Assembly (NCBI RefSeq): GCF_041260155.1
Contig: NC_091932.1
Span: forward strand, 10,527,304 to 10,591,303
From: Ptychodera flava
Taxonomy: Eukaryota > Hemichordata > Enteropneusta > Ptychoderidae
Direction: 5' to 3'
DNA: 64,000 bases
Shown: in pieces, positions 14,134 to 58,228 of the stretch
Position numbering within the stretch: position 1 is the first letter of the stretch
How the letters are laid out: every line of letters begins with the position of its first letter
Made by a program: the position numbers and the translations under genes
The notes under the pieces: generated by a model
What the model was told of the DNA's origin: nothing
What the model saw: only the letters and a program-made list of their open reading frames with translations
Database searches by the model: none

Positions 14134-14137
14134 CATT

Positions 14138-20736: not shown

Positions 20737-20785
20737 ATGCTTGTGTCGTCGGTATTTTTATGGCAGTTTTATCTGAATGTCTACG
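20737..20785 (+). CDS. Exon 1: signal peptide of the GAIN protein
   Basis: ATG opens a 16-codon hydrophobic stretch (MLVSSVFLWQFYLNVY) ending in a phase-1 donor (G then GTAGGT). The next exon begins in the matching phase. Chosen from hydrophobicity, donor quality and phase. No other candidate start was found between here and 25050, but an untranslated or alternative first exon cannot be excluded. Confidence 0.55.
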
Positions 20786-23700: not shown

Positions 23701-26700
23701 CTGTTTTGTTTTGTGGTATTGATTACAAGAAACCGCTATAAAAATTAATTCTGCGAACTGAATTACTAATAACATTTCAAATTGCACTGAAAAAGATTAA
23801 TTATACCCTGAGACTATAGACCGTTCAAAGGCCTTCCCACCATTATTCACGGACAAGTAGTCATTGATGTCGGTTAGGTCGACAAACGTTATTACCCATC
23901 GCTAAGTAGCAATAATTAGGTTGAACTGACTTTATAATTTGATGAGTAATCAACAATCATTCACAGACTGTCAATGGGTCGTACTTTGTATTAATAATCG
24001 TTGCGGACACAGCGATGAACACATTGTCAGAGCAAGGTTTTCTCTCAAATGTTGCATGGCAGTTTTACTCTACGACAGTAATCGATACCTCAAAAGAATA
24101 TGACAATCACAAAGATTGTAAGCAATTGCATGCGTCCCAGTATTAGACTAGTGACAATTTATGCATATTTGAGGGATAATATTACAAACAACGACAGTGA
24201 CAGAGACAGTAATAACAAAAGAGCAACGCTTGTCTTGTAAGTCGGACTGGGAAAGTAACCCTTTCATTTGGTCGTGGTAACCTCCATCCCGAAAAAACAA
24301 AACAAAACAGAAAAACAACCATCCTAAAAGGCGCCTAAAGCAACAACAAAAACAATCAAACACTATACATTGAAAGCAGAAATAGAGGAAGTGATTTTAT
24401 CAAGATACCAAGAACCTTTTTCGCCCCTTTCCATAACCATCAGTAAATAAATACTCGTTGTGGAAAGAATAGTTCTCAGACATAAAATAGTCAACCACAT
24501 ATCCAGTGCGAGCAAGCCGGTACACAAACAGAAAGAATAAATACACAAAAAGGAACAGTTTACACATTCAATACCGAGTTGAACATTCCACTTAAAACGG
24601 AAAATAGCCTTGTGTTTTGGATGTAAGGAAGCGATAGTGCAAACGTTGGTGGAGGGACACTGCATAAAAACGCTATAATACTTACTGTATTAGCATGAAT
24701 TATTGCCTGTATTTTAGCTGAATAGTGCATATACAGGTGAATACAGTTAATAATCCATTGCTTGTATTCAGAAAGCCTGTATTCATGTGGATTCATGTGA
24801 ATTCACGTGTATTATTCTATTATACAGGCAACTCATTAGTGTGAATTTATCTGTATTATTGCATTTTCATGCCGTGGGAGAAGAAGGCCGAAACAGAGAC
24901 AAATTCAATAGGGGTGAATCATTTGATATACCCGGAGAGGCTTGGTTGTTCAATGAAAACCTTAAATTTGTTGGTCTGTATGACCGAAATGTGTAAGATG
25001 TTACTAATTTTGTACCAAGAACATGTTTCTTTCATAAACTTCGTTTCAGGAGCATCCTTGCCTACACCGTCATTCTCTAGTGATTGGTTTCGAATGAGAT
25101 CACAGGATGAAAGCCAGTCATACATTGCCATAGAGCACAACTTAAATGAATTGCCCATTTTTGTGCAGGTAAGGTCCACCATATGTTCGTTTGACTCTCT
25201 CAGATAGAGATACTAAAGCTTTCTTCTTCACATTACATTTTCATTGTAGTAGCGTCTCATACATCTCCTTTCACTTCCTAATTAGGAGGATTAAAGACAG
25301 AATAATATTAATTTTGTCCTACACTTGTATCATGGTCCCGCTGACAATTCCTCGGGTAAGGATGCCAAGACAGAGACCCGACGTATATAATCTTGAATCT
25401 CACTTTCAATTTTGAGCGAATTTGATGCCAAAGGCAATAATTTTGTTGATTACTCAGGGCAGCTATAGCTATATTAAGGCTGTTTGATCAACGATAATCC
25501 CCCTTATTAGGAGGATTAAAGACGGAATAATATTAAAATCGTCCTGTGTCTATATCACCGTTGACAGTTCCTCGGGTACTCGTGAAAAACTGAAACCCAA
25601 AGTATATGAACTGAAATCCCACTGTCAATTGTAAGCAAATTGATGTCAAAGAGTTATAATTTTGTCGTGCTGTTGATATTACGGCAGTTTGATCAACAGG
25701 GTATGCCACAACTTTTTGACAAGTTTACGACACGGATTCACAACCGATGCATGTACCGAGTTTATATGAGTCACAACCGAATGGTTTAACGTTATCGTGG
25801 CCTCGCTGGTTTATTTCTATTATGTTATAACAGTATATTGAATGTCAGGCATGGAACGCTGAAAAGGGAATTTTTCTCTGACTGTGAGCTCATGCGTGTT
25901 CCAACAATGCTATATTGTGAATATGCATGGTATTATTATTACGTCTTGACAATTTAAATTGGAGAAATTTTTGCCATCAGTATTCTGGTACAAAGAATAT
26001 TAAATAGACTTACGTGTTTTAACATATAGGCTTTTATAGGATGATGCACATTCCTTAAACCTTCACTGTGCAATTTACTTGATTTACTTGTTTTAAAAAA
26101 GGTACACCTTCGTGCGATTGATGGTGCAAACGAAGGGTTTATTTTCAATGGAGTTGGATCTGCTCAGCGAGGAGACACTACCAGCAATCCATATGGGGGC
26201 GTCGTCTACACATACAATGAAAACTGGGTACGAGTGATGGCGCCTCAGAAAACAGGGGGCTATGCAAGTGGGTGTTTGATATATACAGGTGAGAATTCAT
26301 CCAATTTTCTGCACCTTTGTTAAGAGGTTGACTTTCCCGAGTTTATTGTAACCTAACTATGTCATTAGTAAAATGTCTTTGATTTTTTAAAGATTAGAAT
26401 CTCAATCTTTGCCTGTTAACAATTATTTAATACCATCGGCCTTTCGCCAAAGGAGACAAGGCTAAAATATTCAGATGCAATTAATGGAACTTTGTAAATG
26501 ACAATCAATTTCACAACGCCCTCAACGTGAGATGGCTGGTCCCGTTAGCCTATCAGTCATCTAACTTAATACGTCTCTGTCTAAACCTGTGAATTAGAAG
26601 TACTTTTACAGATATGCCTGACCGATTAGTTCTCACGAAGGAGAACAGCAAATCTGCAAATTATGTCACTGCCTGCAGATGCATGCATGTACACGTGCAT

Positions 26701-27553
26701 GCATACATTTTCGCATACGATCATACATAGATGGTGGGTAGCGACAGACAGAGATACATAGATACAATGGTAGCTACATGGGTAGCTACACACATATATA
26801 CATAGATTTATACACGTAGATAGATAGATAGATGGATAGATTGATAAATTGATAGTTAGATACATACATACATACATACATACATACATACATACATACA
26901 TACATACATACATACATACATACATACATACATACATACATACATACATACATACATACATACATACATACATACATACATACATACATACATACATACA
27001 TACATACATACATACATACATACATACATACATACATACATACATACATCGTACATACATACATACATACATACATACATACATACATACATACATACAT
27101 ACATACATACATACATACATACATACATACATACATACATACATACATACATACTACATACATACATACATACATACATACATACATACATACATACATA
27201 CATACATACATACATACATACATACATACATACATACATACATACATACATACTGTAGTCAAACATACTTTCTGTTTACGTTTGATATGAAACTTGTAAA
27301 TGTATCGCATAGCATTTCTGAGGGATCGGGGTTAGCCAAAACACGCAACAAATTGCTCAGGGGAACGTTTCATTAGCAGAGAAATAGGACTTGTAAGCTC
27401 AATGCGAATTTTAAAGGATTGGGATGATACATGTTATAATAATGCATGGGAAATTTTTTGATTGACGTTGAATGTAATTATCAATCTGCTGTTCAGAATA
27501 TTTCTTTTGTATATAGATTTAGGACTTCTAGCGAACATTTTAAGTATCAATTG

Positions 27554-27588
<35 letters not shown>

Positions 27589-30500
27589 CACTTTTTATGA
27601 GCGACCGATTTACTCTAATGAGTAATGTTCTTCGGGGCTCACGCCAATAAATACAGCAAACATAAGTTGACAGGATAAAAAAAAGCAAAACAATTCTTTT
27701 ACAACGAAATGCGAGTCATAATAAAGTCTTTCAATAAACTTTTAAACTTATTTTCATTATATGCGAGTTTTACGTCAACTGGTAGGCAATTCACGCTTTG
27801 TCGCCCTTTAATGGAATGTTTTTTGCCAGCATTGAAAAACAACGTGGACCGTAGAAATTTAACTGTGAAGCTGACCGTGTAGAATACAAATTTACGTGAC
27901 TTTGAGGAAGAAATACATTACAGAGTTAATGTGGAGCAGTATTTGATATACATTTGTACACTGTGAGGGCGAGGAAGTAAACAATACGCTGCCTTACTGA
28001 CATCACATCAAACGTAGAAAAGAGGTCAGCAGATGGATAATCATAGGGTAAATTAAACAAGACACGCAATGCTCTCTTTTGCAAAATAAAAACCTTATCC
28101 AAATCATATTCCGTAGTGTTACCCCAAACAATGATACAGTAATCAATCGAACTTTGAATTAAACCATAATATAACGCGATTCGATTATGAAGTCTGGATA
28201 AATGGGCGAAGTCTGCGAATTAGACCAATCCGTTGACTTAGTTTCTTATATAGATTATCGACATGAATGCTCCAAGATAAAGTTTCATCAGAACTACTCC
28301 TAATACAGAACCATGTCGTACGCTACATATTTCACAACCTCCCATCATTATAGATAAAGAATTGGCATTTCTGATACGACCTAACTTATGTGGAGTTGTT
28401 TTAATAAGACACTTGGTTTTAGAAACATTAATACGCATAGAATTAGAGTCTATCCAGTTAGAAATTGGACGAATTTCAACATCTATTGCATCATTTACAT
28501 CTGTGATATTTTGACCTTTAGCAAGAAGTGTTTGATCGTCTGCATACGTGTGTAAACTTGAACAATTGACAGATAACGGCAGATCATTGATAAAAATAAT
28601 GAACAAGAGAGGTCCCAAAATTGAACCTTGCGGTACACCAGTATTAACATTAAATCTCTTTGAGTTACAGCCCATGTAATTTACAAACTGCTCTCGATTA
28701 GAGAGGTAGGATTTAAACCATTCTATAACACTACGTGATAAACCATACATTGACAGCTTCTCCAATAAAATATTATTATTGATGAGACCAAACGCTTTCG
28801 ACAGATCTAGAAGAAGAGCACTATTTATATAATCATTATCAATATTGAATAAGATCTCATCAGTCAAACGAATCAAGGCATTTTGACAAGAAAAGTATTT
28901 TCACATTATCTGCAACAGTATATTTTGCTTGTAACAATAACTTGTATACAAATTCTTTTCTTATAGGAAGTATTTCAAATAAAGGGGAACCTTCTAAGCG
29001 ACTCTCTGTAAATTGCCTCAGTAAATCAAAATTATCAGTCCGACTGGAAGGTGAAAAAACAACCAGCTGAACATGTGAAAAGGCGTACAAATAAATTGGC
29101 TATTCATGATGTTTTATATGGCAATGTTATCACAAAATTTTATTTATTCTTTATTCTATTTTCTTTCCAAAATGTTGGCCTATAAGAGAACAAGGGGACA
29201 ATGAATATCCCAAACCAATAATTTCTGTGCTTGAACATAAATACAGGTAGCTGGATGAAGCGCAATCTGTTGTAATGAAAATAACGCTGTTGTTCAACCA
29301 GTTTAAAGTTTGCGTCTTAGTCCACCGTAAACATAAATAGTGTCTATCGTTTTGATATTGATCTGTTTACCAGTCTCAGTGCTTTTAAAACCCAAGTGTC
29401 ATCTGTTTTATTATCTCTTGCTGATAGTCATTTTACTACCGAGAGTTTCTGATGTTTGTCAGTCTCTGTTTTCACTTGTTTAGTGCCTTTTTAGTTAGTT
29501 TCTGCATGTTGTAATTTGTCTTTTTCATGTTTTATTTTTTCTCTGTTTGCATCCAATTATTGGGCTATGCCTGTTTAATGTCAGATTGAATAAATAAATA
29601 AATAAATAAATAAAAAATAAACTTGCCTATGCGACAGATATTACGCCATCCCTTTTCCCTTATATGGGAAAGCTATAATATCCATTTTAAGTTCTCCTAA
29701 ACATAGAAAATACCACAACTAAAGTATAGATACCAAGATGTTGGGACTTGAATAAATCGAAGGCGTACAACAACTGCAAGTTTGTCAAACACACGCATGG
29801 TGACATGTGCATTATTCAGCGGTTTCACCGAATACTTCTCCCTAAACTCTAGGTGGTCCGCATTGGGGTTCTCCACATGAACAATGCAGTCACGACGGCG
29901 AGGTCAAAGTTGAAGTTTGGATTGCTGACAACTTTCCATCGCCTGGATTTATATCAGACTGGTTTGCATTTGGTTCTAACCAACAAGAAAACTCTTTTAA
30001 GACGATAGAGCACAATTTGGAACAGCAGCCATCGATGGTCCGCGTTCAATACCAAGATAATAACCCATCGCCTGTTGACATCGGATTCACCTCAGATGGT
30101 TTTGGTAAGTTTTTTGAGATAATGCAAATCATTGGCGGATTGAGACTGATGATATCTTGAAAAGATAATAGCATATATGGTATCAAACTCTTATTTCTTT
30201 CGAATTTTAATTTCATCATTAGAAATACATATGATTACACCTTAAGATCCGCCAAAAACAATCGTGTGATCATTGTCGGCCGATTGTAGACTCATTAAAG
30301 GCTTAAAAATAATTCGACGTAATCTGTAGGGGAAATATTATATGTGCTACTGTGTATTCAATTTACATAATGACATAATGGCCTTACTCTCTGGTTTATA
30401 TCTGTATGTCCCATTTCCAAGATTTTCCCCCTTTTTTAATTTCGTGCATTTCTATCAAATCGATATGATGCAGGTTCTGCCCAGTGTGACGACGATAAAG

Positions 30501-33500
30501 CCTTTAAGGAATACGGTGGTGTAGTATTTGCCTACGACGAGACAGCCGTCCGAATATGGGCTCCTAGTGCTTCGAATGTCAACACCTTTGGGGGTAAGAA
30601 CACACCTAGCGTTCACTTTCCTGTGTGCAAATTGTGTTGATTTGAGAAAAACCTCATTATTCATTGCGTCCTATATTTCACAACAGCATTTTAATTGCAG
30701 TTTGCCCTGGAAAGGTTTACGTTTGCAGACAGATCGAATGACCATGGGCAAATCACGAAAATCAAGTATCCTTTTCAGGATATCTGTGATGTTTCTTATA
30801 AAGAACTGTATTTCTATAAACGGTCTCCTCTTCCACTGCTTAACACTTTAATTGCAACCACTGATCATTTGACAACATCCTGTCTTTATCTTCAATCTCC
30901 GATTAAATCAGTCGGACAGATTCTCCCAACATACTGATGACATGAAAAAAAGAAAGTATATTATAGAAATAAGGGGCGACGCGCTGACCATTAACGTTTA
31001 TTTATGGGCAAGGGCGAGAAGGAAAGCTAAATATTAACGGGCGAGGCTTGCCGAGCCCGTTAACTTTGGCTTTCCTCGAGCCCGCGACAGACATCATCAA
31101 AACGTGACAGACATCATCAAAACGAAACCTGAATTTCGTGCTTTCCCCTTTGGTATGACATAGCCATTCGAATGATTATATATCTGAGAAATGCCAAGGA
31201 ACAAAAACAAAATCATTGACAATAAGCTGCCATAGAATTGTTATCATCCTTTAAAATTACATGAAGTGACAGACTGCCATTCCCAATTAGGTCACTTATT
31301 TTTTGCTGGAAGTGGATGGGGCAACGGGGTAAACAACAAAGCTTTTGATGACGGTATCGTCAGAATTATTGTCTGGGCTAACGATTTCCCCGACCCGGTT
31401 TTCAAAACGGACGGCAACGCACTAATGGGCTATGAAAGTGGTCATCCTACGTACTTGACATTTGAAATACCACAGGGTGTCATCCCAGGTTTTCTACTTC
31501 TTGAGGTAAGTTAAACGTTACTAGATATTGGACTTTTCCACATTGGCTGCTGGTCTATTCCGCACCGCAAAATTGTTGGTGCTCTATGAAGTTGCTCGTG
31601 ATGTTAATTTTGCCCATTTATTCACATAGAATTGAGGACCTTTCTCCTGAAAGAACATTATGACGGGGCCAGGCCAAAGAAATCCAAGTCTTCCGACAAA
31701 AAGATAGATTTCTGATTACGATTAGCGAAAGAAAAATGAATCTTCTTTCTCTACTTTCCAAGGCATATAACATTTACTATCTGGCCTATCCAAACTTAAG
31801 TTCATCAATGTTGCCTACAACCATGTTCATAGTTCACCTGCTGGCCACTCGACAAAACTTATTCCCGAATATAGGTAGTTTTTGGTTCAGCGTCCTCGAT
31901 ACGTAAAAAGAGCTAGTATTTGCCACACAAAATACTTTTCAATTTAAAGCATGCAGAGGCTGGGCCTAATTGTGTTTAGTTGTTCTTTGATTTTGTCGGT
32001 ATAAAGCATAAATCTTGCAAAGTCGCTACATTGTCACTTACACAGAGTCTGGTGACCTGGCTTTAGGTTCAGCAAGACATTAATATTTTCCTTTTCTTAA
32101 AAAACAGATAACTTATACATGTATGCGTCACATGAAATTGAACAAAATGAGTACAATTTTGTGATAACATTATGCAGCACATGATGCAGGCACAGGCCTT
32201 AAATACACAACATTTCAAAAGGGATTCTGGTTGTGCACAAAATCCTATCGGCACTCCAGCGAATATTCTGAGATTACATATGTGTCATATGCTGTGCAGG
32301 AAATGCGTTATTCACTGAAAATTATTTCAACCAAATAATAACAAGGCAATGGCATATTAGATGTCAACAGTATTTTCGCACTCATAAGGCTGTCAAAAGA
32401 AGAGATACCCTAGTTTGTCAAAATATATCCCTAAGAGTTATTTCTTTTCCATGAATACATGTGTGTGACTGAAAGGGCCGCCGTTTTAGGTAAGCCTCTT
32501 CCTTAACGTATGTTACTTGCGATTGGCATAATCATTGCAACGGTCACGTCTTCGGTACATTTGTTTTCTTTGAAAAAACATAGGCGCTTGCGGTGACTGG
32601 ATTGAATAAAGGTTTCTCATTCGAAGGGGTAGGTGCTCAGCAAACCTGCGTTTCAGGTTCCATGAATTATGGTGGTATTGTATTTGCATACAACGACAGT
32701 CTTGTAAGATCTTGGTCACCGTCTACTGGCCCCATCATAAATGTACACGACGGTTGGGGTACGCAAACCAGTCAAGCAACCTCAAAGGTTGTAAATGTCA
32801 CCGTGAAAGTCTTCCGTGCTGCTGTTGAAGGTAAGAACAAACGTAATTAATTGTTGTTATCACTGATCACTGATCCTATCAGACATCTATTTGGTTGTGT
32901 GATTAAGAAGTCACCAATGCATTGGAATGTGTTAACACAACAGGCTTGTTTGCAAAAAGCAAGGATTTGCAATACTCATAACTTAAAGATAAAGTACAAC
33001 TACCGAGGAATTAATTGCACGAATAGATACCAAACTAAAGTGTCTAATCGCCTTCAAACAGAACACACGCTCTCTATACAATGTTGAAGTTTTCACACCC
33101 CTCTTTTAATGGCTTCTGTCACGTGCAGAGAAAACGAACAAAAGGGGTGAACTCAGCAGTTAACGTTTAAACAAAATTTATAAATCTAATTGCTAAGTCA
33201 GGGATAAAATACAAGCATTAAAAGTGTACAGACTACTTATCTCAGCTGGGACGGCAAAGCTCCAGTCTCAGAGTTGTAACAGTCAGTCGGATGATGAACA
33301 GTCCTTTGGCTTGCAGGCTTGAAGTTGCACAAAGTCCACAGTATAAATCCAGCGTTGGCAGTGAAGGTCTTGAAAAGTCTTGAGAATGACTATTGCTGGA
33401 GTTTAGTAACACACAAGAGACACGATCCCTAAAGTCTGACTGGAAGCTGTGCACGTCCCTTTTATACCCATGTGCTTACATAAAGGCATATAAGAACAAT

Positions 33501-42500: not shown

Positions 42501-45500
42501 CATTTACTAGCTTCGTACAGAGCAAAAGCAATCTTTTTATATAAAAAAGACAGTCTATTTGAAACATTCATCGATTATAAGTCAGAGTACCTGGCCAGAA
42601 TCGTTCAGTGATGAGGACGCTACGAGACAATCTTCTCAAACGTCGACACAGTTGCAAATGATTATGTTCTCAATTGCAGCATGGGAGATATGATGGAGAC
42701 ACTTTTACTTAAATTCATCACAATTACCTTTAGTTATAAAACTAAACAAAGTATATCGCAATTTTTATGATTTTGTACACACTCACCCTAAAGGAAAGTT
42801 TCACACAGCCAATTCTTAAATGTCAACTTAATGTCTGTTGGATATGTTCGCTATGAATAGCTGCTATTAATGCATGAAGAGTGTATATATCGTATCAGTT
42901 TCGGTAACATGATTATTATACAAGATCGTTAATAAATTATTGGTGGGATAAATAGATATTAATGCAAAACTGTTAATCAATACAAATCACCCTTCCGAAA
43001 TAACAATGGAGAAACACCACTTTTGATTATTTTGTCTATTATGTAAACTTTCGCCTCAAACGATTCAAAACACAAAATGTTCTGAATACTAACATTGATT
43101 GCCGTTGCAGAGAAAAGTGTTTTCTTTAATTACAATTTGTATGCTACATCTTTCACATAGGTACGACACCGACGCCTGCATTGAGAGAAACCGATACATT
43201 AGCAAATCGGCAGAAAACATCAACGCAATTAAGTACAGATGTGCCAATATCGAAAAACATCAATGTGGATATGAATGTAAAGGTAAAAGATAGTATATTA
43301 ATTGCAATTTGCTCAAACGTGCCGAGCGTGCAATACTCGGCATGTACTTCTAAACGCAAATAGACGTTTACTTACAACATTATAGAATCAGTAGGCACTA
43401 TCATATTTAGTGGATCAATTAAATGCTTGTTGGTTTGCAAGTTTTCATTAAATTTTCTGTATCATGTGAATTTGAATGACCCTTCAACGCTAAACGATCA
43501 ATGGTCAGTGTTACTTCTGCTTTAACTGAAAAGCACATTTTCTGAAGAAGTACTCACAGTTTAAGTGAAATCAGCGCAAAAGGCATGCGAAATTATTGCT
43601 GCAATGCCCTGCATGTTTTTTTTTCTCGAAATGCAGTATGCCGCTTAGGCTGTGTATACTCGGAGGTAGCCGTGAGTGTGCTTTCACCTTGTTCTCACAC
43701 TTGTCTCGAGCTTCTTGTCAATCGAAAAGAAGCTTAATATTAACCTCCAGGATGGCAGAAATATACGGAAATTAGATTGAACCATCACCTTAAGACAATG
43801 TCTAATGAATTACTCACGTTGCAGAATTCTTAACATCAGTATATGCACTTACTTGTCGAGAGCCATAACGTTTGGAATATCACTGTTGACCTTTGGAAGA
43901 GAATGCCGTAAATGTTATTAGTATACTAAGTGACATTACAATCATATCCAGGTGAAAGACATTATTTTGTAAAGAGTACAAATTAGAAATTCTAATATCT
44001 TTGCACATATAATTGTATGCCATGCAAGCTGTGCACAATAGAATTTTAAAATTACTGGGAAAAGTAATGTGGTGTCCAACAATCTATGAGTCAATAAAGA
44101 GAGTCATTAAATCTCTTGGTGAAAGCTTCTATACCATACTTTCCATGCCCTCCAAAGCAATCAAGTCGACGCAAGACTGCAGCAATTAAAATGGTCCATG
44201 CAATTTTCACTTTCATTACACGTGATAAGATTTGTGAGTAGGAAGAGAAACCTAACAGGTGACTGATTCAAAAGTTTTGATTTTAATCGTCACTATGTAA
44301 TGAATGTCGTTCGTGATTTCAGAAGCCTTGATTCTGAAACGGGCGACCCAAAAAGCAAGCAATTAAGATGAGCCAAATTGTGTTAAATAAAGCACGGTCC
44401 CTCCACAAAAGGGAGTAAAGCAAAGCATATTCTTCTAATTTACTAGCAAAATTGTAATGATTTTATGACTCAAGTCGTCAGCTTTACTGTGCTAATAGTA
44501 AAAATCTATTTACGTTATTCACCGCCAATGGGCCATCTCTCAGAGTCCTTCAGAAATCATACCACGAAGAATGTGCAATATTAATAGAATGTTAGGAAAA
44601 CAGCAACTAATCAAACTGAATATAGCGTAACAAAGAATAGATTCTGGCGGAACACGATTGGAACAAAGTGGAGAAAATGAGATGAGAGTAATTATCGAAA
44701 TTTTAATGAAATCGAAATTTTTACAGCTTAAATTTTGCATAATGATAGAATAGTGTAAAAAATTAAAAATTTGCTTTTATAGAACAAAACAACAAAAGTA
44801 CATCGATTATTATATATCCCTTAAATAGTATTCATTTCTATAAAAATGTTTTATTTTTGTGTAAATACCATAAAGAAACGAGACAAAATGCATAAAATAT
44901 TTCTAATTGATGACTTTTTGGTCAAGGCTCTTTTAAAATGTCCCTTACTTTTTTCATCGATTGGGCTTAATAAACACTACATGTGGTCAGGGCACTTTTG
45001 AAATGACCCTGACTAACTAAACTGAAAATCGATTGAAAATGGTCATGTTGGTTGGGGCAAATTAGCAAATCGAGATAAAATTAGTATTTCGGTAACAAAA
45101 AAAGTATAGACAAGTTCAAACATTTTCATTCAAATATAAATATTGTTCCTATGTATTGAAGAAATATTGCATTAGATACAATCATGCAATGATTCTTACT
45201 CATAATATTTGTACATCATCGCAAATTTCGGGTACAATTTTAAAAAAAGATGGTTACCAAATACGATGTTATATATAAAAAGATTCTTAAATTCCTGAGA
45301 AATTGTGCCAATCCAATTACCCCAATATAGTTCCAATCGTGTTTCGGGATATTGGCATGACCAGATACAATATTATCAGCTGTAATTCAAACTTTAGTAT
45401 GTATAAGGGGCTAGTTTGGAATAAAATAAATTGAAATATTGAACAAAATGAAGAGCTAGCAGGTCTTAGAAGATATTATAAACCAAAAATTGACTGTACG

Positions 45501-48500
45501 TGCATCCGTTTTATGCTTTGTCAAAAGCAGTGAATTTTGTGACGTCATACTCAGATGAGTACTGATAATGTATTCGATTATCCAGTAATCTGGCCCCAGA
45601 TGTTGTTTACATCTACACATTCACTTGTATAGCCTAAAAAATACTAATGTACCCACTCCCGGTCCATGGTGGAATCAAGCACACTTTACACGCCATAATG
45701 TTCTCAGCATCGCCTTGTACATTATGGTTTGGAAAGTTTACTTTCGTCCATTATGGTCCGGGAGGGGGTACATTATTGCGTAAACGATAAAATCTCTATT
45801 TTGTTATATGATGCTCAGTCACTTTCCTTGGAAGGTGCAACATGTTTGCTGCCATAGTCTTTTTACTTGTTGTATTCATCAGATGTTCGATCTATTAGAG
45901 CAAACCAGCAATGTCGTAAAAATAAATTCTACAACGATGGAGCAGAAGGTTGCCTTTACCAAGGGTATGTAAATTGATAAACTATGAACAGGGAAGAAAG
46001 TATATACTCTTTCACATATTCCGCTCAGCAAAAACTAAAAAACCATACCAATCAAGGTGGCATTGATACCTATAGCAGGAAAATTTCATGACACGTGAAT
46101 TTCAGCCAGACATAGCATTATCATATGAAAGGCTCTTTGACTTTTTGTAGGAATGATATACACCATATTCATACGTGTTAAGTTTTAAAATACTTATTGC
46201 ATAGATCATAAGCATGTGAAAAATATGAAAAATTTGATCTATTTCTTTATCATGTCTGGTCTGCTTGCAAATAAGAAAACCAGTCGAGATTTTCAGCAAA
46301 ACAGTTACACACACTTTGTCTATCATTAAACAGAAGTACTTCACAACATGGAGAAAATACTGTTGACAACTGGAGACAGCCAATTTGTGGATCAAGTGGA
46401 AGACCAAACCAAGGTTTTGATAAGCACGATTCTTTCTATAGTGAAGTTGCTGTCCAAGTTTATTCTTTCGGGGAAGTATCAAATCAACGGCTCGCTTGCA
46501 CTTAATACATCGGCGTTTGTCTTGTACCTTGAAAGTGATTCGCCCGATAAAGTTTGCGACAGAGCAATCATGCTTCTACATGGAAGCGGCTTTTACATCC
46601 CGCCAGCTAACAGTGTCTTCCCTAACCCTGTAACGTGGGGGAAAATCTCTGTTATGGTAAGTTTTTGGTTTACTTGTTTGTTACCCCACAAACGGTTTTC
46701 GGTGATTTTTTGTCGTCGCTTTTTGAAATACTGACCAATCGTAAAAATGTTCTGGTTCCTCGTTAAGAGGTTCTGAGATTGATGTTGATTTTTCAAAATC
46801 TATAACACAGTAGGTCTACACCATATTCGGGCATTACATAGGTCTAGACATTTCTGCGTGAGTGTAAATATAGGTTATATACCATACACACATCCCTTTG
46901 GAAAGAAGCACAAAAACAAAGTCTCTTTATTAAGCCAAGGTAAGTAAATTCTTTGTTTTGCGTCTACTCAAAATCCTAAAAGCTACAAGGTTAAGTGCTT
47001 AAAAACACACACACAGAAAATTTAACAACACACACATAAAATTTAGCACAAAATCAGTTTGCCTTTCTTGGACAACTTTTCTCAAACAAAATGAATGATC
47101 CTGTCACAGTGTAACAAGCTGTATGATCGCTGTATGCATTGTCATGACATATAGATCAAAATAAACACTCAATCGTAGACGTTCGCTTTTATCTTATTAG
47201 TTTTAGATTTCTTTCTTGTGCGTTCAATGTGTCCACATGGAAATACCATTGCACAGCACCTTGACGATCTGTCAAATTCCTTTAATCTCAGCAGTTTGAG
47301 GAATGGGTAAACCATAACAGTATACAGTAGCTGTCTTTTGTGCTCAAGTTCTCGCAAGTTTCTTTCAAATTTCTTGAAATTTCTTTGGTAATGTTTACGC
47401 TCTCATGGATTGTTGCAGTTTTGCTGAAAGGTGTCTTTGTTTTGAAAGAAAACATCAAACAAATCGGGTAACTTAAAGCCTCTGTATTCAATTTTAGAGA
47501 GATGGACACCAGAGAGAACAGGACTTTGGTGACATTTTTGACAAAAGTCTTCCCTTAGTTTCCTTCTGACCATCCGTAAAACCAGTACCTTTCCTTTCCC
47601 TGCGATCAAAGCAATGAAATCATTTCGTAATTGACAGTCTCCATGGCCACCCACAGACTCATAAGACCCAAATTTAGATGGAAACTTCACATCTATTTTC
47701 CTTGCACTTTCAAGTAGCACGTCAAAGGCATTTCGTGTACAGTACTGATCAGTGGTTTGTTTTTATTTAAAGTTAAAATGGCTAAATGAACCAAATTGAT
47801 GGCAAAACTGAAATACCGATAAACTAGGATTGTCTTGAACACCTTCCGACTTTTCCGTAAGCCATACTTTCCCCTGTACCATCATGGTAAGAAGTTGATA
47901 TCATGGAGGTAAAAAATGTTGATATCAATCGGCCGACTGAATCTCTGTCTCTACAAGTCCCGATTGCTCACAACGACCATACCTTCAAGTAGCCACGCAA
48001 AAGTTTCCTGTTAAGTGACTTTGATTATTTCTCTGCTTTCATCCATTGTTAACGCGAAGACAACGCCGCAACAGACAGCGAGAACGTGAGGCAGAGTATC
48101 GACAGAGGTAATTGTATAGAGGGTACCGTTTTACATCAGTGAAATCCAACTGCCGTAAAGGAGTGTTTAGCCACACAGTTCAAAAGGCACCATGACTTGC
48201 TTTTGCGACAAAATAGCACAACCACCGCCGAAATCACAAAAGTTTGTATTTTTCTGTGTTTTCCCCCCAAAATCCCAAAAACTACGCGCACGGACGCAAA
48301 ATAAAGAATTTACTTACTTTGGCTTTATCTTGAATAATTCAACATTAAAATATGATTATTTTCTGTAATTTGCATCGATACTTCGTCCATCTTCATCCAA
48401 CACACCTAGAAATCATATTTGTGCTTGTTTCAGATATTCCAAATGATTGCAAGGTATCGTTACACAACACAAAGAAATTCGGAACCGACAACCGAGCTGT

Positions 48501-51500
48501 TAATTTTAGAATTCCTTGACCCTTCCTTCGATGAAATTCAAGGTAAACTCTCTACAAGCACTAATATAGCGGAAAACTTATAGTCACAATTTCACTTGAA
48601 TCCTATATAGTCATGACTTTGCTGCTTCAAATTAATTTTTCACATCCAGTCATCACCATCACAAGTCTGTTTCACTCGAAGAACTGAACACACCACAGGA
48701 AAAGTAATTGTAGTGAGTAGGTCGTACCCGTTGTTTTTCTTCTCGGCCACATATTTTGTGAAGCACCTTGATTTTCGAGCTCAATGTCATTATGGCAGTA
48801 CTGTAGTTAATCCTTCTTTCAATCGACGTCAATTATTTAGATATTCAAATGGTACGTTTAAAAGTACTGCGAACTAGCAGCATATATGATAATCCTGTAG
48901 TTAGACGGTTAAGGGAAATAAGATAGTTGTGTTCTCTGACAAGGCCCCTCCAAGAATGATCAAGCTTGGGTAAGAAAGTTAGGCCTACATTTCTATAACC
49001 TAACACTGACAACCCTTATATATTTGTTTGTAAATGTCAAGCCATTGTTGATTAAGGGCCGTCTTGCTTAAACTTCAAATACAAGCGTCTTTTCTACACA
49101 TAAAATACCATGGAACATCTGATTTGGTCTCCACATAGAAGCAACTTTTACTCACAATACATGTCAACCTAATGGAATTTTGCCCCCAACAAATGAGTGC
49201 AATTATCACAGAAGTAGCTCGATGTCTCTGCGAATTTTCTGCATGGTAAGAACTATTTCAGTTTTGATGTAAATTGTCACAGCTGGCACAATATACAATG
49301 CTGTGGAAAGGACTAACTGCAGTTCATTCTAGCTGCTTGTTATTTAATTATGTGTACCGGTACATCTATCACATCGAGCGTTCAATTCTGAAATATCAAG
49401 CACTGATTGAGGATTCTATTTGCAGCATTTTGTGAAATATATGGACTTGTATATCAGGCTCAGTGACAGGCGTACTCTTTCTCTCCACTCAAAACACAAA
49501 CGAAAGCTAAGTACACGATTTTTCAGAATTGTGCGACCACTTAACAGGTGGAGTCTAAATAGCAAAAATAGTGTAAGTGAAGTTTTTTACTCTTAAATCT
49601 CTATGGACATTACTATTGAAAGGCACAGTCTCATATTACCATGTGTCATGTCAAATGTGCTGCTTGAGACGCTTGACTTCGTCTTGTGTGCGATGCTGCA
49701 CGAGTGACACTTATGCTGATGTGACACAGGCGAGAGTGGATAACCAGATATGAACTGAAAATACTCACGTGTTTCAGTACACGCTGCAGTTGTCTTTGAA
49801 TTTAAACTTTTGCCACATGTTTGCAACTTCATTGAAAGTGTTATGATCAACATCATTAACAATATTTACTACAGATTAATTCCAAAGGTCATTAAGTTTA
49901 TATGTAATTACCTGAAATAAAAATACTAAATTTTTTGGTTGCTAGCTGTCATTGTATCAATGTATCGACGTAAAAATGCTTAATGACCTCCAGTAATGTT
50001 AAATCATAGGATCTTCAATATTCATACCAAGATTCATCAAGTTTGATTTAGTCAATTCAGATATATCCCTAATATGGAAAGTTCATCAAATATGCAAATT
50101 AGAAGTTAACTTTGATGTCACACCTTTATGTCTTTCATAGCGGATAAATCCTTGTGTGATTAACATTTGTAGCATACGTCATTCAATTTTGTACAGCCCT
50201 TCTCACTTTATGTCTGGGTTTTTTTCTAAAATCATTAATTATGCCCACGAGCATGAAATATGCAAGCCACACCCACGAAAAACTAATCAGTTCATGCCAT
50301 TCTCAAACAAAATCTGTGTACAAGATTTGATTCTGATCTGATGAGCCGTTTTTGAAATATCTTGCGCACAGACAGACAAACACACAGACATACAGACACA
50401 CAGACATACAGACACCCAGACAGACATCGCTGATGACATAAGCTCATGTGTGTGTTAGGCTGAAATAAGCTCCCGGATTATACTAAATCTGCGAACACAA
50501 ATTGCACCAAAACGCGCCTGGATAATATCAGGATTCCTGAGTGCGTCAAGTGCACAATAGTAATTGTAAAGACTCCTTGCACTTACGAGCTATTTGAGAT
50601 TTTATTGTAACATTACTAACGCTTTGACTAACGCAGCACATGAGACTTTAAACCTTCATCCAAGGGTAATTATAACACCGTCCCTGGATGGAATGACTGT
50701 TCCAAGGATGTCCATGAGGTTGCCCGCAAAATGTTCTTGTTTTGGGTAAATGGAGGGAAATCCAAACACGGTCCCTTATTTTGAATGATGAGGAATTCCC
50801 GGGCTAATTTCAAGTATCATTTTCGTGTTTGTGGGAAAATGAAAATCAAATTAGGGCTGATAAAATGGCTAATCACTAAGAGTGTATTGAACAAAAGAAA
50901 TTTTGGAACGAGGTCAGAAAACATTTGAGCAATAAAGCTCATTTAGCATGTACAATGGCCGATGCATCTTGGCATGCTAATTTTGCAAAAATGTAGCAGA
51001 ATCATTCAGTGCAATTTTAATTCAGTGTCTTCGGTTTCGAGGAAGAGGGATATACAGGAGAAGTTGAGCAATGTTGCTTTCTCCTCTTACCATTTCGTTG
51101 CCACGGACGAAATTCTAGAAGCCTTCTGTCAGCTACCCGACGAGAAATCAGGCGCTGCCTGCGCATTTTTTTAACTCAAATTAATGCTTTCCCATGGCTA
51201 TTTGCCTTCTCGTCTTACGAATGTTATTTTGGTTCTTATTATTGAGGACAAAGTAGAGCTGGCCAGTGACGTTTTAAACTACCACCCCATTGCGTTGGCT
51301 ACTATTCTTTCAAAGATGCTAGAGCGTATTGTTCTACAGAAATGTCTGATTTCTCATTATCTTCAATTTGGTTTCAAACGTAACCATTCTACTGACCTCT
51401 ATTTATTCGCCTTCAAAGAAATAGTTGATTTCTATACCAGCAAAGGGGGTCCGATGTTCGTTTGTTTTCTTGATGCATCGAAAGCATTCGACCGCGTGAA

Positions 51501-54078
51501 TCACTTTAAATTAATGCAGAAGCTCAGTATAGGAATATTCCCCCTACATGGTAAGATTCCATCATTTTTGGTATAGAAACCACTTGTTTTGTGTGCAATG
51601 GTGCAATGCAATGCAAGGAAAAGCTTTATCCTTACCTTTTAAACATTAATTCAGAAGCTTTGTGACACTAACATAGTAATATTTGTTGTACAGCAGCAAA
51701 TAACTTAAGCCATGCAGATGATATGACACTTCTCAGTCCAAGTATTAAGAGTTTACAATATCCTCATGTATCTGAAGATTATGGTAAAGATTATTCAGAG
51801 AAATCGGAATGTATGGTTTTAATGGTAGACAAATTGCTCTTTCTCTTACACCTTGTGTAATATTCAACGGTAAATGGGTTGTTATTCAGCACACTCACTT
51901 GGTTCATGTTATTACTAATAACGTGGCTGATGATGTCGATAATGAAAGATATAGACGTACTTTTTGTGTGAGAGCCAATATGCTATTGAGACAATGTTAA
52001 TACTGCTCTATTAATGTCAAGCAAGTGTTGTTTTCTGCTTACTGTAGGGATATTTATTGCTATAATTTTAAGTTTAATACAAATCAAAGTTTTGAACAAA
52101 CATCAAAGTTATGTATAACAATGTTTGGAGGAGGCTATGCTCGTAGCAGTGCTTCAAATATGTTTGTGCCTAAACAATGTCTTTTAGGGAATTTATCCGA
52201 TATAGTATTTACTGTAAATGCAGAATTGATAGATCTTCAAACGCATTGATTTCTCTCACATGTAAATCAGACTGGAATCGCCACAGTAAGATTTTCCGTT
52301 TCTGGAGGAAGCAGTTATACACAATTTAACTCTTTCTTTAGCAAGTGATTACTTACACATTATCTCTATTTCTCTTTTTCTGTATTTTTTGATCATTTCA
52401 GTATGACTTTCCTTTTGTATGTGTTATGCTGTTATTGACACATTGTCTGAAATAAACTTCAAAAATGCTAATAACATCCCACGTTACCGTTACTGGTAAA
52501 TGTTAACGCGTTTCAAACGTTCTCTCTTTTATTAGGAATATACCACAATATAATATAGATCGTTGTTTAATGCATATATATTAGCCATGTAATGTGGATT
52601 AATCAAAAACAATAATTTTTCATATTCATTAACGATTTAGAATATGTGTTTTGATTATAATTAGTAATCCTCAGAAGATGAGATCTTGTTCAATTCATAT
52701 CCCGTATCTTTATCTACAGTCAAAAACGTATCCCAAGAGTTTGGGATATACTTTGGCAAGAAGGGCGTCTCTCTCGTCAATGGAACTATGGATGGAGTAG
52801 AAAGTTTCGCCCGCGAATTAAAACGTGGTTTTCGATGGATTCTCAGGGTATGGGTGCTTTTTATTACAATCCTTGATGTCAAGGTACATTGCATATAAAA
52901 ACCAAGGCAAGGATACAAACACTATAAATTTGAGTAAGTTTTGTATCTATTATACAGAAGCATCTATTGGCATTAGCTTGAGGGAAACTCTAGGTCTTAA
53001 AGGATTACACAAATTTGATCATAATCAGTGTGATTGCCCATTTCTCTCTTCCAGAATCTAAGGTCATACCATGCCGTTAAGATCGCTTTTCATAGTTCAG
53101 AATCTTTGAATGAGAACACTACCGTATTCATGTCAAAAGGGGACTATTGCGATATCGACAATTACGATGACTATGGGACCTTCTCGGACACTGTTAAATT
53201 CGTGGGAAATACGGCTAATCTGTTCATCCCTGAATATATGATGGCACAGCAGGGAAATTATTGTCTCTCATGCAAACTTAATACCAGTGAGTATAAATGC
53301 TAAAGTACAATAGATTGGCATGACCAAACAGACAAGCATCGATGTGATACATTACTTTAGAAATTATTATCCTTATCAAAAGACAGCTAAATACTTTTAA
53401 AATATTTCAAGACCCCAGTGCCAGATACAAGCATACAATAATCAGTTGTGCAACAAATTTAATCAGCATTATCTTAGATAAGTTAAAGTTATCAAACTAT
53501 TACAACACAACTTTCCATCATACTGGAATTCACTTTCTTTCTCATTAGATACAGGGTTGCATTTTACGTTGGTCGTGACACAGCATAAATGCAGCTTTTG
53601 GGAAGAGAAAAACGGTACCTGGGATACTGATGGTTGCAGAGTAAGTTAAACGTAACAAATTTATTGTTAAGTTTTAATGCATTATAAGCCTTACTACCAT
53701 GGAATATAGATCCCCATCAACAAAATTAGATCAGTCCATTCATTCATTCATTCCATAATTGTAAGCGTTGCAGGCCAATTTTAGATAAAATCACGTTAAC
53801 TTAAATATCAAAAGATTTAAGAACATATTACATGAGAGCGTAAAAACGTTGCAATATATATATATAAAATATCAATCAGATAGCTTAAGAGTCTCGATGC
53901 ATATATTAACATATATATTCAAGATTTACGATTGTTTACATTTATGCCTATTTTGTTTAAGGTTTCGTCAGAGTCAAACATCAATTCTACAGTGTGCCTC
54001 TGCAATCATCTCACGGCATTTACCGCGGAGTACACGATCGGAACCAAGGAGAAAGATGACGATCAGATCAAACCTTGA
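20737..54078 (+). CDS. Secreted polycystin-1-like GAIN/GPS protein with three N-terminal beta-rich repeats (15 exons, 797 aa)
   Basis: Exons: 20737-20785, 25050-25168, 26102-26288, 29853-30104, 30474-30593, 31291-31505, 32584-32830, 43161-43282, 45883-45964, 46334-46656, 48434-48542, 52720-52847, 53055-53286, 53549-53640, 53962-54078. Every intron is GT-AG and every junction keeps phase, giving 2394 coding bases. Residues 1-16 form a short hydrophobic leader. Residues 17-397 hold three related repeats (DWF..., IEHNL, GSAQ, YGGVV.AY, VR.WAP). Residues 397-437 are a Thr/Ser-rich linker, and 438-777 a GAIN domain ending in a GPS (C743, W746, W753, C758, C771, C773, H775-L776-T777). The stop follows 21 residues after the predicted cleavage, and no membrane helix is present, unlike polycystins or adhesion GPCRs. 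Exon 1 is the least certain. Introns 7 and 11 hold large retroelements. The function is unknown; the architecture implies a secreted or extracellular-matrix protein. Confidence 0.8.
20786..25049. other. Intron 1; no further gene seen
   Basis: About 4.3 kb. Short open frames on both strands (for example at 22341-22640 and 24363-24665, minus) have no recognisable domains and no splice support. The segment at 22655-22770 resembles 11597-11690. Confidence 0.6.
25050..26288 (+). CDS. Exons 2-3: beta-rich repeat 1 (residues 17-118)
   Basis: Exon 2 (25050-25168) gives SDWFRM and IAIEHNL. Exon 3 (26102-26288) gives FNGVGSAQ, YGGVVYTYN and VRVMAP. The internal intron is phase 0, cutting between FVQ and VHL, the same place as in repeat 3. 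Similar repeats occur, from memory, in uncharacterised secreted proteins of marine invertebrates; I do not know a family name. Confidence 0.8.
25281..25710. repeat. Tandem duplication inside intron 2, ~225-bp unit
   Basis: ATTAGGAGGATTAAAGAC followed by GGAATAATATTAA begins at 25281 and again at 25506. Matching blocks follow (CAATTCCTCGGGTA, GTTTGATCAACG) through about 25707. Confidence 0.8.
26862..27253. repeat. ACAT tetranucleotide microsatellite (~390 bp)
   Basis: An almost pure TACA/CATA array with interruptions near 27049 and 27154. It lies in intron 3. It creates long artificial open frames on both strands with Tyr-Val-Cys-Met and Ile-His-Thr-Tyr periods. Confidence 0.95.
27556..29090 (-). 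mobile_element. LINE fragment, CR1/jockey-like reverse transcriptase
   Basis: The minus strand encodes a reverse transcriptase with LLDLSKAFGLINNNILLEKL (motif A, the usual Asp after Phe changed to Gly), GVPQGSILGPLLF (motif B) and YADDQTLL (motif C). A further piece at 28860-29090 reads LPIRKEFVYKLL. The conserved block between them (the KATGLD region) is missing, so the element is deleted internally. The 3' end on this strand is an AAAT-type microsatellite tail (TTTA repeat at 27556-27590 on the plus strand). It lies in intron 3 of the GAIN gene, antisense to it. Confidence 0.85.
29390..29620 (+). mobile_element. LINE 3' end with AAAT tail
   Basis: A T-rich stretch ends in GGGCTATGCCTGTTTAATGTCAGATTG followed by an AATA repeat (29590-29617). 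This is the form of a LINE 3' untranslated end, opposite in orientation to the fragment at 27556-29090. No coding part remains. Confidence 0.5.
29853..30593 (+). CDS. Exons 4-5: beta-rich repeat 2 (residues 119-242)
   Basis: Exon 4 (29853-30104) gives KVEVWIADNFPSPGF, SDWFAF and KTIEHNLEQQP. Exon 5 (30474-30593) gives GSAQ, YGGVVFAYD and VRIWAP. Both flanking introns and the internal intron are phase 1. The internal intron is placed just before GSAQ, unlike the phase-0 introns of repeats 1 and 3, so the repeats did not arise by a simple recent exon copy. Confidence 0.8.
31012..31086. repeat. Imperfect palindrome, likely terminus of a mobile element
   Basis: GGGCGAG, GGAAAGC and TTAACGGGC recur inverted as GCCCGTTAA, CTTTCC and CGAGCCC around GAGGCTTGCCGA. 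A direct repeat of GACAGACATCATCAAAAC follows at about 31085-31122. Confidence 0.6.
31291..32830 (+). CDS. Exons 6-7: beta-rich repeat 3 (residues 243-397)
   Basis: Exon 6 (31291-31505) encodes IVRIIVWANDFPDPVF and ends LLLE at a phase-0 donor. Exon 7 (32584-32830) encodes FEGVGAQQ, YGGIVFAYN and VRSWSP, and ends phase 1. The IEHNL block of the other repeats is replaced by LTFEIPQGV, so this is the most divergent repeat. Confidence 0.8.
33117..33694 (-). repeat. 3' LTR of the Gmr1-like element
   Basis: 578 bp, TG...CA on the plus strand, ending CTACATAACA. Matches 38566-39150. A purine-rich tract (GAAGAGGGGGTG on the minus strand) adjoins its inner edge at about 33695-33706. Confidence 0.9.
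38546..38563 (-). promoter_or_regulatory. Primer-binding site, tRNA-Pro type
   Basis: Two bases inside the 5' LTR, the minus strand reads TGGGGGCTCGTCCGGGA. This matches the tRNA-Pro primer site known from murine leukaemia virus. It confirms the direction of the element. Confidence 0.8.
38566..39150 (-). repeat. 5' LTR of the Gmr1-like element
   Basis: 585 bp, TG...CA, pairs with 33117-33694. Its outer edge adjoins the CTTC target duplication. Confidence 0.9.
39320..39402 (-). pseudogene. tRNA-Leu-like pseudogene or SINE head
   Basis: On the minus strand, GTGGAGATTTAGCCGACTGG (A-box-like TAGCCGACTGG) is followed by a GCCT/AGGC stem enclosing CTCAGCT (anticodon CAG) and a perfect B box GGTTCGAATCC. 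The anticodon stem has a mismatch and the acceptor ends do not pair, so it is not a working tRNA gene. It may head a SINE. Confidence 0.5.
39420..42150 (-). mobile_element. LINE with APE endonuclease and reverse transcriptase remnants
   Basis: The minus strand holds an endonuclease end (ETDHLPVVCTV, about 41.04-41.30 kb) and a reverse transcriptase (39515-40333). The latter shows KSPGSDGIPSEF, NYRGISLLNTFGKFF, GVRQGCILSPLLFSFF and LLYADDIVIFAD. The central motif A region is scrambled, and the endonuclease and RT parts are separated by a nested MITE (40766-40949). It lies in intron 7 beside the LTR element and antisense to the GAIN gene. It belongs to a different LINE lineage from the fragment at 27.6 kb. 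The segment at 41.3-42.15 kb probably belongs to its 5' part, but I cannot show this. Confidence 0.8.
40762..40953. mobile_element. TTAA-flanked MITE nested in the LINE
   Basis: A 184-bp element (40766-40949) between TTAA at 40762-40765 and TTAA at 40950-40953. Ends AGGTATACTGTCACCTG and (reverse complement) AGGTATACAGTCACCAG match over 15 of 17 bases. No coding capacity. Confidence 0.85.
42151..43160. other. End of intron 7; no gene seen
   Basis: AT-rich and without a convincing coding frame. The stretch from about 42190 (GGGGGTGTAAGAAAGACTAG) looks like the end of some element, but no partner copy lies in the window. Confidence 0.5.
43161..43282 (+). CDS. Exon 8: Thr/Ser-rich linker (residues 397-437)
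   Basis: TTPTPALRETDTLAN followed by QKTSTQLSTD links the repeats to the GAIN domain. It resembles an extended, probably O-glycosylated stalk. The acceptor (CACATAG) is good; the donor GTAAAA is weak. Read-through would reach a stop within about 27 residues and give a repeats-only secreted form. Confidence 0.65.
44652..45343. mobile_element. Longer (~690 bp) element of the ACACGATTGG family
   Basis: It begins AACACGATTGGAACAAAGTGG and ends AATTACCCCAATATAGTTCCAATCGTGTT, the same inverted ends as the 210-bp elements at 8.2 and 58.0 kb. The interior is unrelated and non-coding. The flanks no longer show a clear TA duplication. Confidence 0.65.
45646..45775. mobile_element. Palindromic MITE-like element
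   Basis: AATGTACCCACTCCCGGTCCATGG at the left is matched inverted by CCATAATGGTCCGGGAGGGGGTACATT at the right (by sense: TAATGTACCCCCTCCCGGACC). About 130 bp in all, no coding capacity. Confidence 0.65.
45883..46656 (+). CDS. Exons 9-10: helical part and start of the beta part of the GAIN domain (residues 438-572)
   Basis: Exon 9 (45883-45964) reads LLEQTSNVVKINSTTMEQKVAFTK and exon 10 (46334-46656) continues with a leucine-rich amphipathic stretch, then SLALNTSAFVLYLE and GSGFYIPPANSVF. This order (helical bundle, then a G..F.IP..S.LF-like beta block) is typical of GAIN domains in polycystin-1 relatives. Several N-glycosylation sequons are present (NST, NGS, NTS). Confidence 0.75.
47169..47760 (-). 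pseudogene. Unrecognised coding relic in intron 10
   Basis: The minus strand keeps an open stretch of more than 110 codons with protein-like composition (QYCTRNAFDVLLESARK, GGHGDCQLRNDFIALIA, CQKCHQSPVLSGVHLSKIEY), ending NCNNP. A following stretch in another frame (HESVNITKEISRNLKETC) looks like its continuation after a frame change. The pattern suggests a decayed insertion (transposon or retrocopy) rather than a host exon, because it is antisense and has no splice sites. I do not recognise the family. Confidence 0.45.
48434..48542 (+). CDS. Exon 11: beta strand block of the GAIN domain (residues 573-608)
   Basis: IARYRYTTQ, then TTELLILEFLDPSFDEIQ, joining in phase to VKNVSQEFGIYF of exon 12. 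The V.SL.F.D..G.EI.V.NLS..I.IYF pattern is what polycystin-1-like proteins show upstream of the GPS, which supports joining these exons across the LINE-bearing intron 11. Confidence 0.8.
49740..50455. repeat. Third, shorter copy of the octamer-repeat element in intron 11
   Basis: Shares the left part (CCACATGTTTGCAACTTCATTG, ATTAATTC), an internal monomer with ATGCAAAT near 50092, and the right part (ATATGCAAGCCACAC, AATCAGTTC, CAGACAGACA, ACATCGCTGATGACAT) with the arrays at 3.94-6.73 and 54.2-56.95 kb. It has few internal monomers. Confidence 0.75.
50880..52330 (+). mobile_element. Degraded LINE reverse transcriptase, copy 2
   Basis: Duplicate of the LINE at 1-2075, without the TTAA insertion. 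It includes more of the 5' side (50880-51180). Motif A (FLDASKAFDRVNH, 51184-51576) and the altered motif C (HADDMTLL, from about 51709) are both visible, with about 40 bases missing near 51600 relative to copy 1. It lies in intron 11 of the GAIN gene in the sense direction. Confidence 0.85.
52720..53286 (+). CDS. Exons 12-13: GAIN beta subdomain (residues 609-729)
   Basis: Exon 12 (52720-52847) encodes VKNVSQEFGIYFGKKG and is identical in the upstream paralogue. Exon 13 (53055-53286) encodes NLRSYHAVKIAFHSS, the variable stretch (residues 680-705) and NLFIPEYMMAQQGNYCLSC. Against copy 1, all eight base differences of the four 3' exons lie in 53139-53216. Confidence 0.85.
53549..54078 (+). 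CDS. Exons 14-15: GPS motif and C-terminus (residues 729-797)
   Basis: Exon 14 (53549-53640) carries C743..W746, W753 and C758. Exon 15 (53962-54078) carries C771-L-C773 and HLTAF, then AEYTIGTKEKDDDQIKP and TGA. The intron that splits the GPS is phase 0. After predicted cleavage at L776/T777 the C-terminal piece is 21 residues, with an acidic/basic end and no hydrophobic helix. Confidence 0.85.
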
Positions 54079-54084
54079 AAGTTG

Positions 54085-54090
54085 AATAAA
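54085..54090 (+). terminator. Polyadenylation signal of the GAIN/GPS gene, copy 2
   Basis: AATAAA six bases past the stop, as in copy 1. Confidence 0.6.
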
Positions 54091-54189
54091 AAGCGCCCTC
54101 AAGTGAGAGAATTCGCTGATGGAGACGAGCTAATGCTTTCATCGTCATTTATTATCTGTTTATTATTAAGCATTGATTTCCTTGTGCAA

Positions 54190-56947: not shown

Positions 56948-57034
56948 ATGATGCCCCTCATTTGTAAGAAGAAATGCCCCGTGTACCTATACTGAGCCTG
57001 CTCCATGTTAATTGTCTCAAATCTACAGACAGCA

Positions 57035-58207: not shown

Positions 58208-58228
58208 AAGTGTTAATTTCCTGTTCGA

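Follow-up and report, generated by a model that had tools for sequence, protein, structure and literature searches.

Can a GAIN domain be encoded by a gene that has no membrane part? This question is raised by a locus of the hemichordate Ptychodera flava that lies within a stretch of 64,000 nucleotides (contig NC_091932.1 of assembly GCF_041260155.1, positions 10,527,304 to 10,591,303, forward strand), here called the window. The locus is best explained as a single animal gene whose 797-residue product is a GAIN protein that is secreted and soluble, a reading of the sequence to which we give a probability of roughly 0.6.

The original prediction proposed 15 exons with matching phases, joined into a single gene for a leader, three repeats, a Thr-rich linker and a GAIN domain with its GPS motif. 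When the spliced frame was re-derived from the raw DNA, identical exon ends and an identical product were obtained (15 exons on the plus strand, 2394 nt, 797 amino acids plus stop; Table 1), and the rebuilt model supports the single-gene layout, although the rebuild was not blind, as the earlier exon and residue counts were known beforehand. All 14 introns are GT–AG and the phases agree at every junction; the corresponding chance figure of (1/3)^14 was set aside as evidence because the exon borders had been chosen to agree. Against the consensus, the 14 donors used score 6–8 of 9, and the G+C content is 0.441 in exons versus 0.365 in introns. The exon pairs 2+3, 4+5 and 6+7 each begin and end in phase 1, a pattern typical of shuffled extracellular modules. 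Judged from the DNA, the 15-exon model for 797 residues is very likely sound.

Table 1. Exons of the gene model and associated features, in positions of the window.
Feature	Position	Strand	Content
Exon 1	20737..20785	+	start codon, short leader, residues 1-16; ends in phase 1
Exon 2	25050..25168	+	start of repeat domain 1 (SDWF, IEHNL)
Exon 3	26102..26288	+	middle of repeat domain 1 (GSAQ, YGGVV, VRVMAP)
Exon 4	29853..30104	+	closing segment of domain 1, opening part of domain 2 (SDWF, IEHNL)
Exon 5	30474..30593	+	middle of domain 2 (GSAQ, YGGVV, VRIWAP)
Exon 6	31291..31505	+	closing segment of domain 2, opening part of domain 3 (divergent copy)
Exon 7	32584..32830	+	remainder of domain 3 (GAQQ, YGGIV, VRSWSP, WG..V.V.VF)
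Exon 8	43161..43282	+	Thr/Ser-rich linker, residues 397-437, Ser/Thr 11 of 41
Exon 9	45883..45964	+	start of GAIN-like region, assigned by position ahead of the GPS
Exon 10	46334..46656	+	GAIN-like region
Exon 11	48434..48542	+	GAIN-like region
Exon 12	52720..52847	+	GAIN-like region; tandem copy differs at 0 of 128 nt
Exon 13	53055..53286	+	GAIN-like region; tandem copy differs at 8 of 232 nt, all in 53140-53215
Exon 14	53549..53640	+	first half of GPS (CSFW..GTWDTDGC); tandem copy differs at 0 of 92 nt
Exon 15	53962..54078	+	second half of GPS (CLCNHLT), C-terminal piece T777-P797, stop; tandem copy differs at 0 of 117 nt
AATAAA poly(A)-signal sequence	54085..54090	+	6 bases past the stop; also present in the tandem copy
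Tandem copy of exons 12-15	2461..3803	+	2461-2588, 2796-3027, 3290-3381, 3687-3803; 5' part outside the window

The three repeats that had been proposed are real. Their pairwise BLOSUM62 local scores are 161, 127 and 119, versus best shuffle scores of 52, 51 and 60 (500 shuffles per pair). The number of copies stands but the phasing had to be changed, since the earlier units omitted the first segment of repeat 1 and added an extra tail to repeat 3. The re-phased unit starts at the motif P-x-P-x-F-x-S-D-W-F and ends after the segment W-G ... V-x-V-x-V-W, which gives three complete domains of about 127 residues (17–143, 144–272 and 273–397) between leader and linker. Comparison of the three domains shows 23 invariant columns, among them W107, G108, V120 and V124 of the final segment. 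The DWF and IEHNL motifs have been lost from domain 3, which has diverged furthest. The evidence for the label "beta-rich" is a single low-confidence model, the predicted fold of exon 4 by itself (4 strands, mean pLDDT 68.7); comparison of this fold with the PDB and a viral library gave lowest E values of 1.0 and 0.75 and is therefore uninformative on the fold.

In Pfam, PHROGs and NCBIfam, the repeat has no family above cut-off or at significance: PHROGs gave one unnamed family for repeat 1 (E 0.22) and none for the other repeats, and the NCBIfam search with the repeats gave none. From the PDB, the first repeat drew one unrelated entry (E 0.88) and the consensus none, and of two repeat profiles, A1 drew none and A4 one unrelated entry (E 0.96). 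We take this kind of repeat to be one that occurs in predicted proteins of marine invertebrates. Bacterial genome contigs gave a single locus among 31 pattern matches, with 46% identity over 26 residues and an E value (2e-5) that is relative to the candidates only; it was read as chance, and the sialidase domain PF22432 discussed below was not found in the genome of that match, the 14 control genomes being likewise without signal. Viral contigs contained no relative of the repeat among 59 pattern matches, and a 217-residue query matched nothing in phages. With domain 2 as query, two phage records at E 9 and six plasmid records at E 4–7 were also read as chance. A new architecture, as originally proposed, is plausible.

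One lead on the nature of the repeat comes from PF22432 (PA2794-like_C), a bacterial sialidase domain. In the PDB, repeat 2 finds its best match in the C-terminal domain of a Pseudomonas sialidase (3h6j, 2w38; E 0.1), and the sole Pfam match of domain 2 is PF22432 (E 0.1, 13.2 bits versus a cut-off of 27). This match involves one of the three repeat domains and covers positions 1–44 of 102; the repeat consensus gave none, and none of the repeat domains reaches the curated cut-off along all 102 positions that membership requires. Repeat 1 alone did not retrieve the sialidase domain from the PDB. In the alignment, repeat domains 1 and 2 follow the start of PF22432 over their first 45 or so residues (P-x-F-x-SDWF ... 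H-x-L-x-x-x-P), and domain 3 shows no likeness. Against 52 residues of the sialidase, repeats 1 and 2 beat all 5000 shuffles, 1469 of 5000 shuffles were as good as repeat 3, and 2677 of 5000 were as good as the GAIN region, which served as control; these counts overstate the likeness because the 52-residue piece was chosen as the best match. A profile-to-profile comparison (hhalign), in which the sialidase-domain profile was built from 5 of 16 sequences (the PP21 phage protein introduced below plus 15 viral loci), aligned 37 columns with a probability of 44% and a pairwise E value of 2.3e-4.

The same 52 sialidase residues matched nothing in plasmids and eight records in phages, one at 8e-14 and seven at E 8–9. 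The first of these, annotated as a hypothetical protein, comes from Pseudomonas phage PP21, matches PF22432 at 2.3e-40 and has no PHROG; its domain is also carried by 15 viral loci. In this phage protein (L002:232-1842) the PA2794-like C-terminal domain scores above cut-off and BNR repeats just below, so that from its domains it looks like a sialidase-type glycan-binding protein. The remaining two thirds of the repeat domain did not clearly beat shuffles when compared with three phage sequences: scores at least equal to the observed one were reached by 180, 117 and 14 of 2000 shuffles for domain 2, by 512, 803 and 1210 for domain 1, and by 1746, 1835 and 641 for domain 3. The domain tails thus gave no clear support to homology over the whole domain. 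The repeat and PF22432 appear to share an N-terminal motif, which is kept as a lead with no claim of membership. If the lead is sound, a repeat domain that has no Pfam model may have a relative of known structure in a C-terminal domain of bacterial and phage proteins.

At the other end of the protein, the proposed GPS is confirmed by Pfam (PF01825, E 1.2e-11, 45.3 bits versus a cut-off of 22.5, residues 742–780). The hallmarks of GAIN and GPS, as described in the sections cited, are a conserved Trp, two to four cysteines, an HL|T site and 13 strands, the last of which follows the cut (PMC9672506; PMC4810088). In the present protein both conserved Trp residues are found (CSFW, GTWDTDGC), the cysteines number four (743, 758, 771 and 773), and the cleavage triplet H775-L776-T777 is followed by 20 further residues. 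From these residues, self-cleavage between L776 and T777 is probable, and the four cysteines would form two disulfides. By analogy with known GAIN domains, the 21 residues from T777 would be about enough for strand 13 and little more. The GAIN-like region encoded by exons 9–15 has about 340 residues, the right length for a GAIN fold of about 300 residues including the GPS. The GPS is the only Pfam match in the 797-residue product, with no REJ domain, PKD repeat or PLAT domain; the part of the GAIN region that precedes the GPS drew no Pfam match, and residues 438–743 searched alone had no match in the PDB. Among the eight PDB sequences matched at E up to 5, seven are adhesion GPCRs, all matched via the GPS (E 5.6e-08 to 1.1), three of them at E under 0.01 and the best being ADGRG6 (5.6e-08). 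The eighth, an IgA Fc receptor (E 2.5, residues 410–491), was dismissed as chance. The polycystin type assigned in the original prediction is possible, the likeness being one suggested by the layout and not by these matches.

Both known families differ from the present protein beyond the GPS. The nearest adhesion GPCR, ADGRG6 (GPR126), has in common with it a GPS with two Trp, four Cys and HL|T, and the match runs through the GPS only. In adhesion GPCRs the 7TM part follows directly after the GPS, whereas the present chain stops 21 residues past the cleavage site and no anchor was found. Members of the polycystin-1/REJ family (PKD1, PKD1L, SpREJ) likewise have an extracellular domain that ends in GAIN/GPS, but the other features of the family (REJ or PKD domains, PLAT, 1–11 transmembrane segments) are absent from the 797-residue product and were not found on the plus strand downstream. 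The GPS of human polycystin-1 has been described with one disulfide (PMC4810088), whereas the four cysteines here fit the two-disulfide form of adhesion GPCRs, a comparison in which polycystin-1 enters by that description only. In sea urchin, SpREJ1, 8 and 9 are given one predicted membrane segment and SpREJ10 none, and SpREJ10 is also the sole exception to carrying a GPS (PMC1934368). Among the literature matches listed, it is the nearest described case, without predicted membrane segments but also without the GPS. Soluble N-terminal fragments released from adhesion GPCRs have been described (PMC13197933), and these differ from a GAIN protein that is encoded without a membrane part. No such protein is described among the open-access literature matches listed, which include the cited sections of PMC1934368, PMC12716839, PMC13197933, PMC9672506, PMC4302439 and PMC4810088; absence from print is not claimed.

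Exon 1 is the weakest part of the model, with 49 nt encoding a short, moderately hydrophobic leader that does not rank among the protein's ten most hydrophobic 19-residue windows. Of nine candidate first exons (ATG to a phase-1 donor scoring at least 6, within 17–25 kb), this start is the most hydrophobic. Ten N-glycosylation sequons, eight of them at residue 452 or beyond, fit an extracellular protein. The top ten Kyte–Doolittle windows start at 298–304 and 490–494 (best 1.92, at 492) and sit inside the repeats and exon 10, with none after the GPS. In keeping with the secreted protein of the original prediction, no membrane anchor occurs in the model and none was found downstream on the plus strand, and we consider it likely that the protein lacks one.

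Conversely, the gene could encode a conventional membrane receptor, polycystin-like or of the adhesion-GPCR type, whose transmembrane exons lie further downstream or belong to another splice form, the short end being an isoform or an error of the model. GAIN domains have been described only in the polycystin-1 and adhesion-GPCR families, in the section cited (PMC9672506), and the window offers just 9.9 kb beyond the stop of the full copy, while introns of this gene reach 10.3 kb; exons past position 64000 are possible. For the tandem copy of exons 12–15, 50.3 kb upstream, the corresponding interval spans 16.9 kb and is closed by the start of the next copy at 20737. Pfam scans of all plus-strand frames (E up to 0.1) found no PLAT, polycystin, PKD-channel or 7TM family at 54079–64000 or, after the upstream copy, at 3804–17043 and 17040–25050, though such scans could miss short exons. 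Six downstream Pfam matches at E up to 0.1 were rejected as transmembrane exons; all fall below cut-off and belong to unrelated models, the best being Trypan_PARP on simple repeats (2e-5, 25 bits versus a cut-off of 100). The rhodopsin-type GPCR at 16023–17039 is on the minus strand. Exon 15 contains no plausible donor after the GPS motif, the only GT there scoring 3 of 9, and a poly(A)-signal sequence follows the stop. In six frames of the window, the sole other C.C.HLT is that of the tandem copy, which has kept 7 of 7 splice sites, the stop and the AATAAA. The end of the gene is well supported because the kept stop and splice sites, the AATAAA, the poor donor and the lack of a downstream receptor domain agree, and the coding sequence seems to stop at the point where a membrane part would otherwise begin. 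We regard a hidden receptor as unlikely.

Comparison with the tandem copy points to constraint and to one hot spot of change. Exons 12, 14 and 15 differ at none of 337 nt between the copies, and five neighbouring non-coding stretches differ by 2.8%, 1.0%, 1.9%, 3.4% and 3.0%; the divergence of exon 13 (3.4%) equals that of the most divergent of these neighbours. All eight coding differences fall within 76 of 569 nt (53140–53215; 2881–2956 in the copy), and none of 200,000 random placements was as tight. Six of the seven changed codons alter the residue (680–705) and one is synonymous. Such a pattern would be expected if the locus belonged to a diversifying recognition family, for self/non-self or gamete recognition, whose copies differ in part of the GAIN domain, and lectin domains of sea urchin REJ proteins have been reported under positive selection (PMC1934368). 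However, two copies only are at hand, gene conversion from another paralogue gives the same cluster, and the non-synonymous share (7 of 8 changes) is near the neutral expectation of about 80% for this stretch. The values for the tail (dN 0.016, dS 0.009) come from eight changes and are not used as proof of positive selection. Because the share is near neutral, the cluster does not decide among local freedom, conversion and diversification, each of which is possible. A recognition family would be compatible with a secreted GAIN protein, and we hold it to be improbable to about the same degree as the membrane receptor.

The duplication extends beyond the exons. With a shift of about 50 kb, three pairs of blocks are 91–96% identical (1428–6628 and 51705–56907; 7491–9194 and 57250–58961; 9307–14136 and 59009–63777); the segmental duplication includes 5.3 kb at 95.3%, and other blocks with the same shift are at 89–98%. 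Either the duplication is recent, or the assembly has set two haplotypes one after the other.

Somewhat less probable than the two preceding alternatives is that a repeat protein (exons 1–7) and a GAIN gene (exons 9–15) are neighbours joined only in the model. The join does depend on intron 7, which at 10,330 bp holds an LTR element, and on the short exon 8, which lacks independent support. Nevertheless, the transposon explains 6 kb of the intron, exon 7 has a good phase-1 donor and exon 8 an AG acceptor in phase 1, and a separate GAIN gene beginning with exon 9 would lack a leader, though its GPS presumably needs disulfides. The least probable alternative, a non-functional receptor-gene duplicate that has decayed or was truncated not long ago, would suit the location in a recent segmental duplication and the absence of the expected anchor, but is hard to reconcile with 797 codons free of stops and frameshifts, 14 of 14 intact introns, and no change in 337 coding nt versus 1.0–3.4% in the non-coding neighbours.

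If the locus is a single gene for a secreted GAIN protein, the leader of exon 1 would direct the product into the secretory pathway and out of the cell. The three N-terminal domains may then serve as a multivalent extracellular binding arm that acts on glycans or on another protein. This soluble binding role, adhesin or lectin-like, is proposed tentatively and at somewhat less than even odds, and draws on the sub-threshold resemblance of the first third of the repeat domain to PF22432. After the arm and the Thr/Ser-rich linker, the GAIN domain would fold, probably cut itself between L776 and T777 and form two disulfides from its four GPS cysteines. Since no membrane anchor was found, the 21-residue C-terminal piece would remain in the GAIN core as its last strand. 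The domain would thus be a stable two-chain cap, possibly sensitive to force or contact, and not part of a receptor; in the modest form of this reading, the product would bind in soluble form or act as a decoy, carrying a two-chain cap.

In the two membrane-receptor families to which the section cited assigns GAIN domains (PMC9672506), cleavage exposes a tethered agonist. Without a membrane part, such an agonist could not act in cis on a membrane bundle of its own. The 21-residue peptide from T777 might instead act as an agonist that diffuses or travels on a shuttle, kept inert by the GAIN core until the three-domain arm binds its target and frees it; we consider this very unlikely. If it were true, the tethered-agonist principle of adhesion GPCRs would become one of signalling between molecules. 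A natural GAIN protein without a membrane part would in any case show that the fold and its self-cleavage are useful without a receptor, and a soluble one would be easy material for studying cleavage and strand release.

Several other elements were observed in and around the gene. The GPCR frame upstream of exon 1 is intact (Pfam 7tm_1, 1.9e-31); its 3' end recurs at the right edge of the window (14767–16270 versus 62471–64000), and its downstream flank is also found at 12845–14128. Shortly 3' of both copies of the GAIN exons lie tandem arrays (4131–6300 and 54427–56602) with units of 146–147 bp and a higher order of about 290 bp. The LTR retrotransposon of intron 7 (33117–39151) has ends of about 590 bp (33117–33695 and 38566–39151) that are 95.1% identical, with gag- and pol-like frames, named by eye, on the minus strand between them. 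Intron 3 contains an ATAC microsatellite of 99 copies (26860–27253), and reverse-transcriptase-like non-LTR fragments, also named by eye, occur in introns at 28238–28900 (minus strand), 39515–40369 (minus strand) and 51175–51576 (plus strand).
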